Positions 1-26,384 of a DNA stretch of 38,507 nt are shown here, in pieces. Every line of letters starts with the position of its first letter. The stretch's first letter is position 1. This stretch comes from Acetivibrio cellulolyticus CD2 (GTDB lineage Bacteria; Bacillota; Clostridia; Acetivibrionales; Acetivibrionaceae), in NCBI RefSeq assembly GCF_000179595.2, contig NZ_JH556657.1:378339-416845 (forward strand), in the 5' to 3' direction. The notes below the pieces were generated by a model. The model was not told the DNA's origin, searched no databases, and saw only the letters and a program-made list of their open reading frames with translations. Made by a program: the position numbers and the translations under genes.

Positions 1-525
1 AGAAAGCCTTGAGTTTTTTTATGATAGAATTTATGAACTTTGGGGTTTATTCTCAGTTACAAAGGTTTCAATACCTGAAGTATCATAAGCGATAGTGGAT
101 GCAAGAGTAGTGTTAATTTCCTGGCAAATAGGTTCTGTAATATCTACAAGGTGGTTAAAGAAGTTTTCCAGGTAAATAACGAAATCTTGTTTGAACCGTG
201 TAAACTGAGAGTTATGAGGGACGTCTGGAAGGCCACAGAATTCACGGGCTTCATGGCATAAATTAAGAAAAATAATGAGTAGCGAAACTGTAGGAATGCC
301 AAGAATTTTCTGCAGAACTAATGCTGAAAGCATTGAAGAGAGTGAATATTTACGGTCTCTCCCTAGAGTTTTGTGGTAAGACCAATAAAAATCCTGTGGT
401 ATAAGCGAAGATAAATCAAGATGTTGTGAGAGTAGCTTAAGAAATTTTGGCTTATTATTTTGAAAAACATCTTTACATTCTTCGAATGTGTCAGCAAAAG
501 AAACTTGTTTATAAAGTTTTACCAT
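1..525 (-). pseudogene. Frameshifted IS4-clan transposase (partial)
   Basis: This is the N-terminal part of the DDE transposase that is intact at 20494-21927. It reads in frame from the ATG at 525 to about residue 159 (ending TEN). A 2-nt insertion relative to the intact copy (near 42-47) then changes the ending to KPQSS and a stop at 31. The matching out-of-frame sequence continues to base 1 and beyond the window. The first catalytic Asp (in the AYDTSG stretch) is present. The second Asp and the Glu would lie beyond the break, so this copy should be inactive unless the insertion is a sequencing error. Ribosome site AAGGGGAAAACAA precedes the ATG. Confidence 0.85.
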
Positions 526-597
526 TTGTTTTCCCCTTCTCTTGTTTAAAATTGGATTAGATACCTATATTTTACTAGAAGCAGAGGGGGAAAACAA
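526..597 (-). promoter_or_regulatory. IS transposase promoter and RBS-masking inverted repeat (copy 1)
   Basis: On the minus strand a -35 TTGTTT (592-597), 17-bp spacer and -10 TAAAAT (569-574) lie upstream of the transposase. An 11-bp perfect inverted repeat (526-536 with 587-597, extended by three pairs after one mismatch) pairs the transposase ribosome site with sequence overlapping the -35. A transcript started at this promoter would begin inside the loop, near 562, and lack the masking arm. Read-through transcripts would contain both arms. The same structure is in copy 2 at 21928-21999. Function is inferred by analogy with IS10/IS50. Confidence 0.6.
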
Positions 598-682
598 TAA
601 AAATATCAATTTGAAATGCAGTAAATTCAAGCGTTATAGCATTTCGCAAATAACTAAAAATAAATATTCTAGGGGGATAAGC

Positions 683-18757: not shown

Positions 18758-20023
18758 CTAATTTTTGAACTCAACAAGGTATTTATTCAGCTTGCTGTCG
18801 AGTTGCTGTACTAATTCGTCAAGCTTGCTAACGGATTGTGTCATCTCAGAAATTGCTGAAAGTTCATGTTCTGTGGTAGCAGCGACTTCTTCGCTGGCAG
18901 CAGCAGTTTCTTGAGAAACTGAGGAAATATTCTCTATTGCTGAAGTAACCTGTATCTTGTCATTCTGCATTTTTGAAACAGCTTGATTAACCTCATTGAT
19001 TTTGCCTACTATATAAGTTATGGCGTTAGCTATATCGTTAAAAGCACTATCTGTTTTGTTAACAGCTCCATTTTGCTCCTGTGACATCTTTTTCATTAAT
19101 TCCATCGATTGAATTGCCAACTGTGATTCTTCCTGTATACTCTGCATCAATAGGTTGATTTCTTCGGTTGACTTTCTGCTCTGGTCAGCAAGCTTTCTGA
19201 CTTCTTCCGCAACAACAGCGAAACCTCTTCCTGCTTCACCAGCTCTTGCAGCTTCAATAGCAGCGTTCAGAGCAAGAAGGTTTGTCTGTTCGGCTATACT
19301 TTCAATGGATTCAACGAAAAGCCCGATATCATTAGTTGTATTGGTTAACTTTTCAATTACGGCAAATATCTTCTCGGCTGTATCGTTGTTTTCTTTTGAT
19401 TTATTACGCAGAATGCTTACTGAGTCTAGACCTACATTGTTCAGATCACTTATTTTTCTAGTCTCTTCGGTTATTCTGGTATAACTTTCATATACAAAAT
19501 CAATCTGCTCACTTAGGTTATCCACCATTTCAACACCATGTTGTGCTGATTGTGCTTGCTCAGATGCTCCTTTTGCAATATCATCCATGGTTTTTGAGAT
19601 GTCCTCCATAGCGTTTGATGCATGCTGGGCTGTGGCACAGACAGCATGAGAAGATTCCATAATTGAGCTTGAAAGATTATGAAAGTTGTGAACCAAATTT
19701 TTTATGTCCATAAGAACATCATTAAAACCAGTTGCAACATTTTTTAATTCTGAACACCTCTGGATGTCAACCAGATGAGAATAGTCGCCTTGCTTAATTG
19801 AATTAATATCGCTTTCCAGACACTTAAAATTCTTTTTTACAATAATATTGCTTATCAAGTACATTAGGAAACTTGATAAAACTGAGGACACTACTAAAAG
19901 TAAAACTGAAGTCCAATTACTGTTTAGTATCTTTGCAATAATAGCAAAAACTATAGCCACAAGAAGCGGTAATATAAGTAAAGTTCTTGATGATGAAAGA
20001 AGTCTATGTGCGATTTTTTTCAT
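18758..20023 (-). CDS. Methyl-accepting chemotaxis-type signal transducer
   Basis: 421 aa. Two closely spaced membrane helices (about 13-32 and 37-58) leave only a few residues outside. Then comes a HAMP-like segment (about 60-115) and a long coiled-coil signalling domain with the hairpin tip [38 protein letters not shown]. The near absence of an extracellular sensor suggests that it senses membrane state or a cytoplasmic signal, or partners with another receptor. Candidate adaptation sites (Glu/Gln) are present but were not mapped. The ATG at 20023 follows CTGGAGG. It is monocistronic, convergent with the MBL gene and divergent from the operator-bearing promoter at 20174. Confidence 0.92.
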
Positions 20024-20173
20024 ATTCTTACCTCCAGTATAGATAATGAGAAATAGTTACTGGCCAAAGATATGCATATACTATTAATAATTCTACAGAA
20101 ATAGATAAAATCCTCTTTGTTAAAAAAATGAATTATTTGTATCTTACCCTTGAAGTATTAATTAAATTTGTTG

Positions 20174-20208
20174 TTGACTTTGATTGTATAATTGTATACA
20201 ATTATACA
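20174..20208 (+). promoter_or_regulatory. Promoter with perfect 24-bp palindromic operator
   Basis: TTGACT (20174-20179), 17-bp spacer, TACAAT (20197-20202). A perfect palindrome covers 20185-20208 (half-site TGTATAATTGTA; centre TTGTATACAA), so it overlaps the spacer and -10. The centre fits the TnGTnnACnA pattern of FadR-type GntR regulators. A gene for such a regulator lies in the operon downstream of the IS (23531). A repressor-controlled promoter is the simplest reading. Confidence 0.7.
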
Positions 20209-20493
20209 TAAATACTTAGATACGAAAATACCAAAATACATATATACAGTGGATTATTAACTTAGTAAAAATTATAATAAAGTTTATGTTTATAACAAAG
20301 TTCTTTTATTAGGCATTTGCAAAATGACTTAAAAAATCAGATGTAAAAAGTTAGAAGAGATGTAAAATGGACTTTGATAACTTAAGAGGGATATATGTTA
20401 GTGATTTGACTGAAAAACCAGAACCTTGTTGATGAAATTACAGCACAAATAAGCTTATGTATAAGACATAAGTTTCAAGAGTAAGTTAGTAAA

Positions 20494-21927
20494 TCAAGCG
20501 ATTAAAGGTTTTAAACTACGTATATACTTGTGCTCATGAATTTTATCTGCAAGTATTACAGTAATTAGTTGTGTGATACCTGCGAGATATAAATCTGCTT
20601 TAATAGTTAGGTTGTCTCTTGTTTTAAGATTACCACAGGCCATAGGCTCCTTAAGGTATTGAATGTTTTTTTCTACTACAGTCCTAATTTTGTAGTCAGA
20701 AATCCATTCGTCAGAGCCTCTAATCACACCTGGATACATGCGTTTATCCATGGCAGGAGATGTGAAGGTTACACGACCGCAAGGCTTGCCATTACAGGGG
20801 TTATCACAAGAAGTAACCCATTTACCTTTAATTAGTTTTGCCTGTGGGCACCGCCATTTGAATCTTTCGATTCTTCCTTCTTCTCGGCTCCAGCCATTTG
20901 GTTTCATTGGTACAGAAGAATCTTTAGAGCAAAGTGGCCAACCATCATCATTGTATTTAATAGGCGGAAGATTAGGGTTTGAATTTCTGGAATTCAAAGG
21001 TATTAGAGCCCTTTGAAACTTGAGTTCATCTAAGAGCAATGTGTAGGTATCGCACGTATCAAAAATAGAATCACCAAGGAAAGTGCTTGGTTTAAAATCC
21101 GGGTGAAGAGTAAAGAAGTCTGCAAATACTGGTTTAAGGGATTTGGAATCACTAATAGATTTATCTTCGTCTGGAGAATCCGATTTTTTCTCAATGTGCA
21201 TTTCAGGATGTTTCTTTTTGAAGTCACTATCCAAAAAGGCAATATGTCTTGGAATGCCGAGGCCGTTGGTGATAATGCCAAACTTGTAGACATAGCAGAA
21301 GTAGCCGTTTATGTAGAGTTGCTTGATTTCTTTGTTTGCAGAGGCTGAAGAAGGCATAAGGCTATAAGCCATTTTATATACATCGACATCAGGCTTGTCC
21401 TTGTAGAAAGCCTTGAGTTTTTTTATGATAGAATTTATGAACTTTGGGTTATTCTCAGTTACAAAGGTTTCAATACCTGAAGTATCATAAGCGATAGTGG
21501 ATGCAAGAGTAGTGTTAATTTCCTGGCAAATAGGTTCTGTAATATCTACAAGGTGGTTAAAGAAGTTTTCCAGGTAAATAACGAAATCTTGTTTGAACCG
21601 TGTAAACTGAGAGTTATGAGGGACGTCTGGAAGGCCACAGAATTCACGGGCTTCATGGCATAAATTAAGAAAAATAATGAGTAGCGAAACTGTAGGAATG
21701 CCAAGAATTTTCTGCAGAACTAATGCTGAAAGCATTGAAGAGAGTGAATATTTACGGTCTCTCCCTAGAGTTTTGTGGTAAGACCAATAAAAATCCTGTG
21801 GTATAAGCGAAGATAAATCAAGATGTTGTGAGAGTAGCTTAAGAAATTTTGGCTTATTATTTTGAAAAACATCTTTACATTCTTCGAATGTGTCAGCAAA
21901 AGAAATTTGTTTATAAAGTTTTACCAT
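20494..21927 (-). CDS. IS4-clan DDE transposase
   Basis: 477-aa intact transposase. Catalytic residues are probably Asp in IAYDTSGIE (about residue 148), Asp in FLGDSIFDT (about 291), and Glu in YKIRTVVEKNIQYLK. The last matches the IS4-clan signature Y-(2)-R-(3)-E-(6)-K exactly. A cysteine-containing insertion (RWRCPQAKLIKGKWVTSCDNPCNGKPCGR) precedes it and looks like a small metal-binding or beta-rich insert. The protein cuts and joins the element's ends. The ATG at 21927 has AAGGGG eight bases upstream, inside the inverted repeat 21928-21999. Copy 1 has a Val for Ile at residue 7 and a frameshift. Confidence 0.9.
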   Translation of the reverse strand: MVKLYKQISFADTFEECKDVFQNNKPKFLKLLSQHLDLSSLIPQDFYWSYHKTLGRDRKYSLSSMLSALVLQKILGIPTVSLLIIFLNLCHEAREFCGLPDVPHNSQFTRFKQDFVIYLENFFNHLVDITEPICQEINTTLASTIAYDTSGIETFVTENNPKFINSIIKKLKAFYKDKPDVDVYKMAYSLMPSSASANKEIKQLYINGYFCYVYKFGIITNGLGIPRHIAFLDSDFKKKHPEMHIEKKSDSPDEDKSISDSKSLKPVFADFFTLHPDFKPSTFLGDSIFDTCDTYTLLLDELKFQRALIPLNSRNSNPNLPPIKYNDDGWPLCSKDSSVPMKPNGWSREEGRIERFKWRCPQAKLIKGKWVTSCDNPCNGKPCGRVTFTSPAMDKRMYPGVIRGSDEWISDYKIRTVVEKNIQYLKEPMACGNLKTRDNLTIKADLYLAGITQLITVILADKIHEHKYIRSLKPLIA

Positions 21928-21999
21928 TTGTTTTCCCCTTCTCTTGTTTAAAATTGGATTAGATACCTATATTTTACTAGAAGCAGAGGGGGAAAACAA
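21928..21999 (-). promoter_or_regulatory. IS transposase promoter and RBS-masking inverted repeat (copy 2)
   Basis: Same arrangement as at 526-597: -35 TTGTTT at 21994-21999 and -10 TAAAAT at 21971-21976 (minus strand). The inverted-repeat arms are 21928-21938 and 21989-21999; one arm carries the transposase ribosome site and the other overlaps the -35. Confidence 0.6.
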
Positions 22000-22087
22000 T
22001 AAAAATATCAATTTGAAATGCAGTAAATTCAAGCGTTATAGCATTTCGCAAATAACTAAAGTTCTTTTATATTAAGGGGGTTTGAAC

Positions 22088-23467
22088 ATGATAGAGTTCA
22101 ACAAGAAAACAAATACGCTGGAACAAACTCAATACAAGTATTCACTTCAAGATGTGGCAGAACCTAACCTCTATAGAGAGATTTTTAACTATGATGAGAT
22201 ACCAAAATGTGCTTTTAACCATAGAAAAGTTCCAATGTTTCCTGCAGACGAAATATGGATAACAGATACCACATTCAGAGACGGTCAGCAGTCCAGGGCA
22301 CCATATACAGTAGAACAGGTTCTGCACCTTTTTGACCTCTTGCATAAGCTCAGTGGACCTAATGGAATAATAAAGCAGTGTGAGTTTTTTCTATATAGTG
22401 ATAGGGATAAAGAAGCTGTTTACAAGTGTCAGGAGAGGGGATATAAATACCCTGAAGTTACAAGCTGGATAAGGGCTACAAAAAATGATTTTCAACTCGC
22501 CAAGGATATGGGTTTGAAAGAGAGCGGCATTTTAGTCAGTTGCTCCGATTATCATATATTTAAGAAACTTAACATGACTAGAAAACAAGCTCTTGACCAT
22601 TATATGGGCATTATTAAGAGCGCAATTGAGGTGGGAATTAAGCCTAGATGTCATTTTGAGGATATTACCAGAGCTGATTTTTATGGTTTTGTTGTGCCTT
22701 TTGCTCTAGAACTCAGAAGACTTTCAGAAGAAAGTGGAGTGCCGATAAAAATCCGGGCATGTGATACATTAGGTTATGGAGTTGCGTATCCGGGAGCTGC
22801 GTTACCTAGAAGTGTACCGGGAATTATATATGGTCTGAGGCACCATGCAGGTTTCCCAAGTGAACTTATTGAGTGGCATGGACATAACGACTTTTATAAG
22901 GCTGTAAGCAACTCAGCTGTTGCATGGCTATATGGAGCTTCCAGTGTAAACTGTTCACTCCTGGGAATTGGAGAAAGAACAGGAAATACACCTCTTGAAG
23001 CTATGGTAATTGAGTATGCTCAGATCAGAGGGACTACGGACGGGATGGATACAACTGTTATCACTGAAATAGCAGATTATTATGAAAAAGAAATCGGCTA
23101 CCATATACCTTCGAGGACACCTTTTGTCGGAAGAAACTTTAATGTCACACAGGCAGGTATTCACGCTGATGGACTTCTCAAGAATGAAGAAATCTATAAC
23201 ATATTTGATACAGCAAAGCTTCTTAACAGACCAGTTGGTGTTGCTATCAACCAAACATCCGGTCTTGCAGGAATAGCACATTGGATAAACAGCTATTTCG
23301 GATTGGATGGCAGCAAACGTATAGATAAAAGAGATGAAAGAGTTGTAAAGATAAAAGACTGGGTTGATGAACAATACAAGGATGGACGTGTTACAGCTAT
23401 TGGCGATAATGAGCTCGAAGAGGTTATTAGGAAAATGGCTCCGGAAATATTTGACCTGGTTCTTTAA
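22088..23467 (+). CDS. Re-type citrate synthase (2-isopropylmalate synthase-like)
   Basis: 459 aa, HMGL/DRE-TIM metallolyase family. ITDTTFRDGQQSRAPYT near residue 58 carries the metal and catalytic Arg-Asp. EWHGHNDFYKAVSNS gives the metal-binding HxH, and GIGERTGNTPLE and FNVTQAGIHADGLLKNEE follow. The length and the insertions match the Clostridium kluyveri Re-citrate synthase group better than NifV homocitrate synthase or LeuA, which has a longer C-terminal regulatory domain. It would condense oxaloacetate and acetyl-CoA to citrate for glutamate synthesis in this anaerobe. The ATG at 22088 has AAGGGGG seven bases upstream (a TTG at 22082 also fits the frame). The IS ends 29 bp before it. 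A GntR gene follows after 63 bp. Confidence 0.78.
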   Translation: MIEFNKKTNTLEQTQYKYSLQDVAEPNLYREIFNYDEIPKCAFNHRKVPMFPADEIWITDTTFRDGQQSRAPYTVEQVLHLFDLLHKLSGPNGIIKQCEFFLYSDRDKEAVYKCQERGYKYPEVTSWIRATKNDFQLAKDMGLKESGILVSCSDYHIFKKLNMTRKQALDHYMGIIKSAIEVGIKPRCHFEDITRADFYGFVVPFALELRRLSEESGVPIKIRACDTLGYGVAYPGAALPRSVPGIIYGLRHHAGFPSELIEWHGHNDFYKAVSNSAVAWLYGASSVNCSLLGIGERTGNTPLEAMVIEYAQIRGTTDGMDTTVITEIADYYEKEIGYHIPSRTPFVGRNFNVTQAGIHADGLLKNEEIYNIFDTAKLLNRPVGVAINQTSGLAGIAHWINSYFGLDGSKRIDKRDERVVKIKDWVDEQYKDGRVTAIGDNELEEVIRKMAPEIFDLVL

Positions 23468-23530
23468 TAAAAGTTTACCATGAAACAGAGTATTTTATAA
23501 TAATTGTGCTCTGCAAAGAGGGAGGGCTAA

Positions 23531-24223
23531 ATGGCAAGAATTGAACATGATGAGAGTGAAATCAATTTACATTCTCTAAGGGCTAAGGTTTTTAACCATA
23601 TACAGAATGATATTTTAAATGGAGTATATAAGCCGGGCGACAGCCTTACGGAGTCAAAACTTTGTACTGAACTCGGAGTCAGCAGGACTCCAATAAGAGA
23701 AGCTATAAGGCAGCTTGAATTGGAAGGACTTGTTCAATCCATACCAAACAAAGGTGTATTTGTTAATGGAATTTCGACTAAAGATATTGAGGATATATAT
23801 ACTATAAGAATGCTGATTGAAGGTTTAGCTGCGAGATGGGCGGCCGAGAACATTACTCAGGAAGAACTTAAAGAACTCAAAGAGACCATTGATCTTGAAG
23901 AGTTTTATACAATGAAAAATGATACCGAGCATCTTTTAAAGCTTGACTCGAAATTTCATGAGATAATATTTAGGACCAGTAAAAGCAGATCACTTATGCA
24001 TGTTTTGAGTATGTTTCATCATTATGTTCAAAAGGCCAGAAATGCTTCTTTCGGATCGCCTGGAAGGGCAATGAAGGTGCTCGATGAGCATAAGGCTATT
24101 TTTCAGGCGATATCGGATAGGGATGCCGAAAGAGCAGAAAGACTTACTACTGAACATGTAAAAAACGCAAGTGTCGAATGCCAAACAGCATATAAGCTTT
24201 TGATGGAAAGGGAAGGCAAGTAA
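23531..24223 (+). CDS. GntR/FadR-family transcriptional regulator (FCD domain)
   Basis: 230 aa. Winged helix (about 12-82): LRAKVFNHIQNDILNGVYKPGDSLTESKLCTELGVSRTPIREAIRQLELEGLVQ. All-helical FCD ligand domain (about 88-225) with likely metal ligands: Asp and His in LDSKFHEII, His in DEHKAIFQAI, and His in TTEHVKNA. Such FCD domains bind small carboxylates such as citrate or lactate. Linked to a citrate synthase gene, it probably senses a TCA-type acid, which is inference. GGGAGGG precedes the ATG. The candidate operator is the 24-bp palindrome at 20185-20208, now separated by the IS. Confidence 0.9.
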   Translation: MARIEHDESEINLHSLRAKVFNHIQNDILNGVYKPGDSLTESKLCTELGVSRTPIREAIRQLELEGLVQSIPNKGVFVNGISTKDIEDIYTIRMLIEGLAARWAAENITQEELKELKETIDLEEFYTMKNDTEHLLKLDSKFHEIIFRTSKSRSLMHVLSMFHHYVQKARNASFGSPGRAMKVLDEHKAIFQAISDRDAERAERLTTEHVKNASVECQTAYKLLMEREGK

Positions 24224-24290: not shown

Positions 24291-26384
24291 TTAAGGTGCT
24301 AGATATATCTTAGGTGTTGGAGGTGTATTCATTCCACTACCTATAAAGAATCCGGTATGAGGAGGTTGATTATATGCTACGTTCTGCCAAGCTACACCAA
24401 GTCTGTAAACCGGATCGTGCATTAAAGTATAGATTTTACGTTCTGTAGTAGCTGTAGTTGTATAAATACGCAAAGCTCTACTATCACTTGTTCTCCAGAT
24501 TACTTCTTCTCTCCAGTCTCCTAATATATCTGCCTGCAAACATGGAACAGATTTGGTACCATTGTTTGCCGAACATCCACTTGCTGAAAAACCAGATCCA
24601 CTACCATCACGATTGGTTACTGTAGTACCGTCCAAGATTTCACGGCATTCATCGCCATCCCACCAAATCGCAAAGTTCTTTTGACTTGGAGCTGAGCCAA
24701 GGTTCTTTCCAGTACAGCTAAATAATGAAGACCCAGCAGCCCACATTTCTTCGCCTGGAGTGTTTGGATCAATGTCAGCTGTACAAGCTCTACCAGTATC
24801 ACCTGATGCATTCCATCTGAATATTTGATTTCCGGTTTTTGCATCTAGCAAAACTGCTCCTCCTGATGATTCAAGACATCCCCATACTTCCAAGCCAGGT
24901 CTGTTTGGATCAAGATCACCAAAATGCATTGAATCACCATGACCTAATTTGGTATTCCATAAACCCTTACCATTATCATCAATACAAGCCATACCACTAA
25001 TAATCTCATCACGTCCATCTCCATCAACATCACCTACTGAAAGGTTATGGTTACCCTGTCCTGCATATGATGAATTACCGCTGTCATTGCTGTCAAATAC
25101 CCATCTCTTTTCAAGTTTTCCGTTTCTAAAATCCCATGCTGCAAATACCATTCTTGTATAGTACCCACGTCCCATAACAAGACTTGGATGTTGTCCATCA
25201 AGATAAGCAACACAAGCTCTCATACGGTCTACTCTGTTACCATAGCTGTCACCCCAACTTGAAACAGTTCCTCTTGGAACTACATAGTCTACGGTTGAAA
25301 GTGCTTCACCTGTAGGTCCGCTAAATACAGTAAGGTACTCAGGACCTGATAATATGTATCCGCTTGAGTTAACGTAATTTGCACTTGCATTACCTATAAC
25401 CTTACCCTTGCCATCTGTAGTTCCATCTGCCGTCTTACAAGCAACTTCTGCCTTGCCATCACCATCTAAATCGTAAACCATGTACTGGTTATAATGTGCA
25501 CCACTGCGGAGATTTTTACCAAGGTTTATTGTCCAAAGCTTTTTACCTGATAAAGTATATCCTTCAAGGTATTCAGGATCGGTAACTCCTGAATTTGCGT
25601 TATCCTGTGGATTTTTCTCCCACTTAATAACAATATCATACTGTCCGTCTCCGTCCAAATCACCGGTACTGCTGTCACCTGCTGTATATCCACTAGCTGG
25701 AGGAGTAATAGGCACTTGCAAATAATTCTGTCCCCAAACGCTAGCTTCTTTTGATGCTGACTGTTCTTGACCGTTTATTACCGGTTTTACAGTATATGAG
25801 GAGCTTGTGCTTCCGCTTGCATCTACATAATTTGTAGCACCAGTAATAGGTGAAGAGTTTACTTTGGTTCCGTTGCGGTATAGATTGAATGAAACACCTG
25901 AGGAATCAGTACCAAGCATACGCCAGCTTACAAAAACACCATTACTTACTTTAACAGCTACTAAACCTCTGTCAAGATTCTCCATCTGCCTTGAACCTGC
26001 TATTGGTGCTGAAGTGCTAGTTGGAGCTGTAGGTTCTTGTGGTTTTGTAGGTGTGGGTGTAGATGTTCCTTGAATTGTTATACCTGCAGGAAACTGTGTA
26101 ATAAGTCCGAGCAAGTAACTCCTAATTAATGCAAAATCAATTGAATTAACTCCGTTATCAGCATTTACATCAGCTGCTATCTTCCAGTTGGAAGCCGGAA
26201 GATCTGATGAACCACCAATTAGATATGTTCTCATCAATGCAAAATCAATTGCATTTACGTTAGTGTCAGCATCGACGTCACCATACTTTGTTGATGCCTG
26301 ACCATTTGCGGCATAAAAGCCTGTGTTTGGTAAAAAGCTAAGGACTAAACCAAACACGAGTAAAAAAATTAATACTTTTTTCAC
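24291..26384 (-). CDS. Cellulosomal rhamnogalacturonan lyase, PL11, N-terminal dockerin
   Basis: 697-aa secreted enzyme that cleaves the rhamnogalacturonan-I backbone of pectin by beta-elimination. The signal peptide is residues 1-29 (MKKVLIFLLVFGLVLSFLPN). A type I dockerin (about 34-102) has repeats starting DVDADTNVNAIDFAL and DVNADNGVNSIDFAL. A Thr/Pro-rich linker (about 105-130) precedes the PL11 module to the C-terminus: MENLDRGLVAVKV, fibronectin-like start, then an eight-bladed propeller with calcium-binding DLDGDG and DVDGDG loops and QADILGDWREEVIWRT. The dockerin is N-terminal, opposite to the xylanase. The start is GTG at 26384 with AGGGGG upstream. It is monocistronic. Confidence 0.93.
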   Translation of the reverse strand: MKKVLIFLLVFGLVLSFLPNTGFYAANGQASTKYGDVDADTNVNAIDFALMRTYLIGGSSDLPASNWKIAADVNADNGVNSIDFALIRSYLLGLITQFPAGITIQGTSTPTPTKPQEPTAPTSTSAPIAGSRQMENLDRGLVAVKVSNGVFVSWRMLGTDSSGVSFNLYRNGTKVNSSPITGATNYVDASGSTSSSYTVKPVINGQEQSASKEASVWGQNYLQVPITPPASGYTAGDSSTGDLDGDGQYDIVIKWEKNPQDNANSGVTDPEYLEGYTLSGKKLWTINLGKNLRSGAHYNQYMVYDLDGDGKAEVACKTADGTTDGKGKVIGNASANYVNSSGYILSGPEYLTVFSGPTGEALSTVDYVVPRGTVSSWGDSYGNRVDRMRACVAYLDGQHPSLVMGRGYYTRMVFAAWDFRNGKLEKRWVFDSNDSGNSSYAGQGNHNLSVGDVDGDGRDEIISGMACIDDNGKGLWNTKLGHGDSMHFGDLDPNRPGLEVWGCLESSGGAVLLDAKTGNQIFRWNASGDTGRACTADIDPNTPGEEMWAAGSSLFSCTGKNLGSAPSQKNFAIWWDGDECREILDGTTVTNRDGSGSGFSASGCSANNGTKSVPCLQADILGDWREEVIWRTSDSRALRIYTTTATTERKIYTLMHDPVYRLGVAWQNVAYNQPPHTGFFIGSGMNTPPTPKIYLAP

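Follow-up and report, generated by a model that had tools for sequence, protein, structure and literature searches.

A predicted GntR-family operator for citrate-synthesis operons and its separation from a Re-citrate synthase gene by an insertion sequence in Acetivibrio cellulolyticus

We examined a promoter overlapped by a perfect 24-bp palindrome, together with the Re-citrate synthase (ReCS) and GntR-family regulator genes downstream of it, in a 38,507-nucleotide stretch of the Acetivibrio cellulolyticus CD2 genome (hereafter the window; contig NZ_JH556657.1, positions 378,339 to 416,845). With a probability that we put at about three in four (0.76), the palindrome is the autoregulatory operator of an FCD-domain GntR regulator governing the citrate-to-glutamate branch, an operon built on Si-citrate synthase (Si-CS) was imported into the same genome under an identical operator, and the native promoter-operator has been parted from its operon by an insertion sequence (IS). 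In our codes for genomes and loci, G000 is the genome of the window, G001 and G002 are the other genomes of its genus (g1), and L numbers denote individual loci.

The palindrome and its second copy in the genome

A sequence-only reading of this stretch had proposed a strong promoter, TTGACT-17-TACAAT, overlapped by the palindrome and placed on the plus strand, divergent from a chemoreceptor gene. Both elements are present at 20174-20208, and the chemoreceptor frame does lie on the minus strand:

20174-20179, plus strand: -35 hexamer TTGACT, by sequence inspection
20185-20208, no strand: candidate operator, perfect 24-bp palindrome TGTATAATTGTATACAATTATACA, seen in the sequence and retained in relatives
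20197-20202, plus strand: -10 hexamer TACAAT, 17-nt spacer from the -35
20212-20216, plus strand: weak extra half-site ATACT (mostly ATACA in relatives), from column frequencies over 57 loci

The palindrome covers 20185-20208 and the -10 hexamer therefore falls inside its right half. The extra half-site, which in the column frequencies lies 8 bp past the palindrome's own ATACA, suggests that more than one dimer is accommodated. With the IS and one copy of its target duplication removed, 118 bp separate the palindrome from the ReCS start codon, in keeping with the roughly 100 bp first proposed, and the FadR-type GntR gene stands behind ReCS as claimed:

22074-22080, plus strand: ReCS ribosome-binding site AAGGGGG, its GGGG common to seven aligned relatives
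22088-23467, plus strand: ReCS gene, HMGL-like, intact, 459 aa, at most 93% identical to relatives
23531-24223, plus strand: GntR-family regulator gene with FCD domain, 230 aa, PF00392 (E 7.7e-21) and PF07729 (E 1.8e-30)
18758-20023, minus strand: methyl-accepting chemotaxis protein gene (PF00015), divergent, an operon neighbor in many relatives

The ReCS start was taken as the ATG at 22088, which agrees with relatives, the tool-called TTG start being at 22082. The enzyme was provisionally assigned from its match to the HMGL-like family and from the genes of its relatives, which adjoin an aconitase gene as in Clostridium thermocellum; no NCBIfam model matched it above cut-off, and it is a putative Re-citrate synthase by family and neighbors.

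The suggestion that the palindrome fits a FadR-type GntR site also held, as its core, TTGTATACAA, matches the FadR-subfamily consensus GTM-N0-1-KAC stated in passages of PMC4494728. This core occurs at 17 sites in the 6.16-Mb genome (15 loci holding 16 of them were inspected), only two of which extend to the full 24-bp palindrome, and a genome scan allowing up to 2 mismatches to the 24-mer returned the same two sites and no others. Both adjoin GntR/citrate-synthase operons and share the same -35, spacing and -10. We ruled out a palindrome arisen by chance: the genome has one further full 24-mer, which stands at a paralogous operon, and relatives keep the palindrome together with the promoter geometry.

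The second full 24-mer (G000:C9:18793-18816) is an identical operator with the same TTGACT-17-TACAAT promoter, followed after 100 bp by a paralogous GntR gene, a 448-aa Si-CS (PF00285; NF010635 above cut-off), which belongs to a family unrelated to ReCS, and an aconitase gene. The C9 GntR protein is 68% identical to that of the window and the recognition segment, GVSRTPIREAIRQLELEGLVQ, is the same in both, and it could act on both operators.

The operator across the order and the class

The sequence-only reading had set beforehand a test on which the proposal would stand or fall, namely whether the palindrome precedes orthologous operons in relatives. We gathered 63 loci from the order of the window, of which 56 had 150 bp or more of sequence ahead of the first gene; a site was scored at 18 or more matches out of 24. 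The site was found in 55 of these 56 loci and, after setting aside the seven that had been fetched by the motif itself (L286, L287, L296-L299 and L305), in 48 of the 49 motif-blind ones. The one exception, L254, begins at a contig end within the operon; the front of this operon is on another contig and the site is there (L299). The promoter is kept with the site: of the 56 site-bearing loci, counting the window, 52 have a -35 of at least 4/6 placed 16-18 nt before the -10, and L232, L238, L245 and L248 do not. Among named ReCS loci (the best 80 of 588 kept, 8 of these dropped for short flanks and 72 usable), 42 of the 45 that have a GntR gene nearby carry a site of at least 18/24, vs 3 of the 27 that have none, while 10 of 3,858 control windows reached 18/24. 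Across the order, the GntR protein was found in 55 of 58 genomes at E 1e-40, or 53 of 58 once two genomes holding only a paralogue (G004 and G011) are subtracted; 48 of 58 genomes have ReCS at E 1e-60 and 50 of 58 have Si-CS.

Motif scans blind to gene content gave a similar picture. Of 291 genomes of the class, 37 contain the 24-mer at up to 2 mismatches and none contains the reversed control. These hits comprised 40 places, 30 of which were retrieved as loci; one is the window and, of the 29 others, five are from its order. A citrate-branch gene follows 27 of these 29 sites: ReCS at 14, aconitase at 2, GntR then Si-CS at 7, isocitrate dehydrogenase then GntR at 2 (L331 named by NCBIfam, L332 by likeness to L331) and a NifV-type synthase at 2. 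The NifV-type genes, above cut-off for TIGR02660, stand directly behind the operator (L319 300-1472 and L330 102-1262), one of them followed by aconitase; they belong to the homocitrate synthase family and may represent a third type of citrate-forming enzyme controlled by this regulator. A scan of the order at up to 3 mismatches returned 71 places in 47 of 58 genomes. In G028 and G030, a second operator (23/24) stands before a Si-CS-aconitase pair outside the GntR locus; in G051, a 20/24 site precedes isocitrate dehydrogenase, which fits the pathway. Where a stand-alone Si-CS gene was returned with its locus, no site was found in 14 of 14 cases (best 16/24).

Several results weigh against this interpretation. 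Of the two class sites left over, one precedes a gamma-glutamyltransferase gene and the other lies at a contig end where the next gene is not visible. In the order scan, the reversed control reached 10 places vs 71, and several of the weaker sites precede unrelated genes. Among the named ReCS loci, L025, L057 and L090 have a GntR gene and a site below 18/24, and the usable loci L018, L043 and L066 reach 18 with no GntR gene nearby. The co-occurrence of site and regulator is also strongly dependent on phylogeny, and a test over 6 independent pairs (mean 3.8 agreeing, 1.0 disagreeing, median p 0.375) is not significant because the pairs are too few. In genus g3, the palindrome has a degenerate left arm (18-20/24). 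Finally, the operator persists in G004, G005 and G011 (21, 22 and 19 of 24) before a ReCS-aconitase operon that has no GntR gene, and no close GntR orthologue was found in these three genomes, G004 and G011 having only a paralogue of about 36-39% identity; another GntR protein may serve the operator there.

Some minor observations attach to these scans. The gamma-glutamyltransferase site (L318 1309-1332) matches at 22/24 and the same variant is found in the same family at G079:C3:43606. A further GntR paralogue of about 39% identity is encoded in the genome of the window (G000:C3:1425516-1426121) and recurs through the order; it might recognize the operator in genomes lacking the orthologue. 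In G047, a 21/24 site (L288 2522-2545) lies before a gene for a TAXI-family TRAP transporter binding protein, possibly bringing acid uptake into the regulon; we count it as unproven or chance, together with the sites at a NADH oxidase-like gene in G031 and a sporulation protein gene in G005, a gene-internal site in G020, one within a 759-aa frame in G055, one in G015 and a second weak site in G028.

The insertion sequence and the history of the locus

The native promoter-operator and the ReCS gene are now separated by the following features:

20298-20309, plus strand: left copy of the 12-bp target duplication AAGTTCTTTTAT
20310-22058, minus strand: insertion sequence, 1,749 bp, ends TAGGCATTTGCAAAATG / CATTTCGCAAATAACTA, from genome copies and flank comparison
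20494-21927, minus strand: transposase DUF772 (PF05598), 477 aa, reading away from ReCS
22059-22070, plus strand: right copy of the target duplication AAGTTCTTTTAT

The element has the transposase domain, terminal inverted repeats, target duplication and multiple copies that identify an IS, possibly of the IS1182 type. In a search of G000, 40 of 63 candidates were scored and ten, including that of the window, were near full length at 97-100% identity, the remaining scored matches being fragments or copies split by gaps. Exact flank matches of 10-13 bp were seen at 7 of the 10 IS loci checked; in two of these seven (L174 and L176) the pairing of the ends is less simple because a second IS fragment lies in the locus. 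The start of the window (1-658) is itself inside another copy of the same IS, and several copies in the assembly are apparently split by gaps of about 100 bases.

The neighborhood of the window (chemoreceptor, ReCS, GntR, rsmF, rsuA and a methyltransferase) is syntenic with that of the other genera in its family, in which ReCS is followed by an aconitase gene. The commonest layout in the order is operator-ReCS-aconitase-GntR, to which a terminal Si-CS is added in L236 and L241 and also in L249, whose upstream is cut off. Most relatives have the aconitase gene between ReCS and GntR; the window locus is without it, and in G000 we found no native-type aconitase, the only close match being the C9 aconitase at 60%. 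The layout operator-ReCS-GntR is found in G028, G030 and, apart from its IS, the window, while operator-aconitase-GntR-Si-CS, with no ReCS, is found in eight loci (L237, L238, L240, L242, L243, L244, L246 and L250). All three genomes of the genus of the window have the layout operator-GntR-Si-CS-aconitase.

Trees place the two operons of G000 apart. The window GntR falls within the native clade of its family (9 rows, SH-aLRT 97), and the C9 GntR groups with those of G001 and G002 (100) and then, at a moderate value of 88, with GntRs of family f5. For Si-CS, the g1 genomes form one clade with G028 and G030, which belong to f5 (100), and the C9 aconitase groups with those of G028 and G030 (100) in a tree that carries a long-branch warning. 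At the syntenic place in G001 and G002, ReCS and GntR are absent and the chemoreceptor directly adjoins rsmF; the operator is gone from between them, with best matches of 16/24 (G001) and 14/24 (G002). In G028, a one-contig genome, the ReCS frame (L228) is broken after about residue 147, possibly through an assembly error. The locus has the look of a half-completed enzyme exchange. On our reading, a Si operon was transferred with its own operator, probably into this genome from another lineage, the native aconitase was lost, and ReCS was then lost by insertion, frame break or deletion.

Mode of control and comparison with known systems

The regulator is a FadR-subfamily (FCD) GntR protein by its domains, pocket residues and fold. 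Its AlphaFold model (pLDDT 93) matches FCD proteins, with the Brucella structure 7u5q as the best Foldseek match (E 5.7e-13), followed by PmiR (7xp0; E 1.4e-11, TM 0.76/0.87, 32% identity), and with VanR Atu1419 (6z74, with a fortuitously bound citrate) and TM0439 (3fms) also scoring high. PmiR reportedly senses 2-methylisocitrate. Residues R93, D139, H143, H187 and H209, whose roles are taken from the literature on CitO and TM0439, are invariant in 40 GntR sequences.

We propose that this protein would autoregulate the genes for citrate synthase, aconitase and sometimes isocitrate dehydrogenase through the predicted operator. It would most likely repress its own operon by occupying the promoter's -10, as suggested by the overlap of palindrome and promoter. 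A metal-bound carboxylate (citrate, isocitrate, 2-oxoglutarate or glutamate) may alter its grip, with repression relieved or strengthened. The second operon, with its own GntR, the identical operator, Si-CS and aconitase, would follow the same logic and probably came from another lineage; the native locus would have lost its aconitase before a recent IS parted the promoter-operator from ReCS and GntR, and the cell would now probably rely on the Si operon, with ReCS silent or weakly expressed. The observations of the sequence-only reading are confirmed, and its interpretation of a GntR-autoregulated operon uncoupled by an IS is supported.

How far ReCS is cut off deserves weighing. The IS moves the promoter 1.76 kb further from ReCS and adds an oppositely read transposase gene, which likely uncouples the enzyme from its promoter-operator; the loss of expression is no more than probable, since no strong plus-strand terminator was seen in the IS, where the sole terminator-like stem on that strand is weak. 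The link between operator and regulator could hold while ReCS is still expressed, by read-through of the 1.75-kb element or from a hybrid promoter at its end, a possibility that we take seriously but regard as doubtful. A promoter-like site (TTCGCA-17-TATATT, 9/12, 22045-22073) does span the IS end, and ReCS is intact with no sign of decay, its tree branch of 0.071 equaling the median. However, this site stops 14 bases before the ATG, and the scan of 20100-22100 that returned it found 5 sites vs a shuffle mean of 7.9, fewer than in the shuffles, so an outward IS promoter, as a weak match from such a scan, was rejected; an intact ReCS is to be expected if the insertion is recent.

Two other accounts of the site compete with the one proposed here. 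An effector-dependent activator is unlikely but has a precedent in CitO of Enterococcus faecalis, an FCD GntR protein that, according to passages of PMC4746285 and PMC3198936, binds DNA with citrate and activates; its R97, F143, residue 147, H191 and H213 correspond to our R93, D139, H143, H187 and H209 by a constant offset of 4, a match by numbers only. The layout speaks against activation: in 52 of 56 loci, the palindrome covers the -10 of a promoter that has a good -35 spaced by 16-18 nt, the arrangement usual for repression. We reject, as very improbable, the account in which the divergent chemoreceptor gene is the main target of the palindrome and the proximity to ReCS is secondary. In many relatives the chemoreceptor gene and the operon are divergent, and in the window that gene is now the only one adjoining the palindrome, but the operator also stands at the C9 operon and at many further sites with no chemoreceptor found beside it, the -35 and -10 overlapped by the palindrome face the operon, and G001 and G002 retain the chemoreceptor where the site is gone.

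Among known systems, this regulator stands closest to FadR-subfamily proteins with local operons, such as 7u5q, PmiR (7xp0), VanR (6z74), TM0439 (3fms) and LldR (2di3), whose fold it shares. Unlike in those systems, the predicted targets here encode citrate synthase, aconitase and isocitrate dehydrogenase. The operator is of the same consensus class as FadR-subfamily sites in passages of PMC4494728, where extra half-sites lie 7-12 nt away; in the main text of this survey of GntR regulons, the word citrate is absent and one clostridial FadR-subfamily regulator appears. CitO is likewise a citrate-linked FCD GntR protein whose metal- and carboxylate-binding positions agree by the constant offset (passages of PMC4746285), but it activates citrate fermentation operons (citrate lyase), whereas the operons here make citrate and repression is more likely from their layout. 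Like the window genome, the cellulolytic clostridium C. thermocellum has both citrate synthase types, and its ReCS gene adjoins aconitase; in passages of PMC6115520, both enzymes are described as active and the reason for having two types as an open question. The evidence given there is isotope labeling and gene neighbors, whereas here one operator links both enzyme types; the term GntR is absent from the text of PMC6115520. Among the matches listed in the open-access literature, none described this regulon or linked the motif to citrate synthase; RegPrecise and subscription journals lay outside the scope of the search, and priority is not established.

These results assign a predicted target set and binding site to a regulator present almost throughout the order (53 of 58 genomes), provide for anaerobes a tested genomic signature of the glutamate branch, and make the window genome a natural experiment in enzyme displacement. 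A broader view, which we consider as likely as not, is that one GntR protein and its operator-promoter form across many Clostridia a fixed socket into which non-homologous citrate-forming enzymes are exchanged, with ReCS, Si-CS and perhaps NifV-type synthases swapping at the entry step of glutamate synthesis and this genome caught mid-exchange with the Si operon in control. If true, this view would explain at the level of regulation why two citrate synthases coexist in clostridia.

One further gene of the window lies between GntR and rsmF, at 24291-26384, and encodes a dockerin-bearing family 11 rhamnogalacturonan lyase. None was present at that place in annotated relatives of the family, and a 77%-identical stretch is found at G000:C3:2134360.

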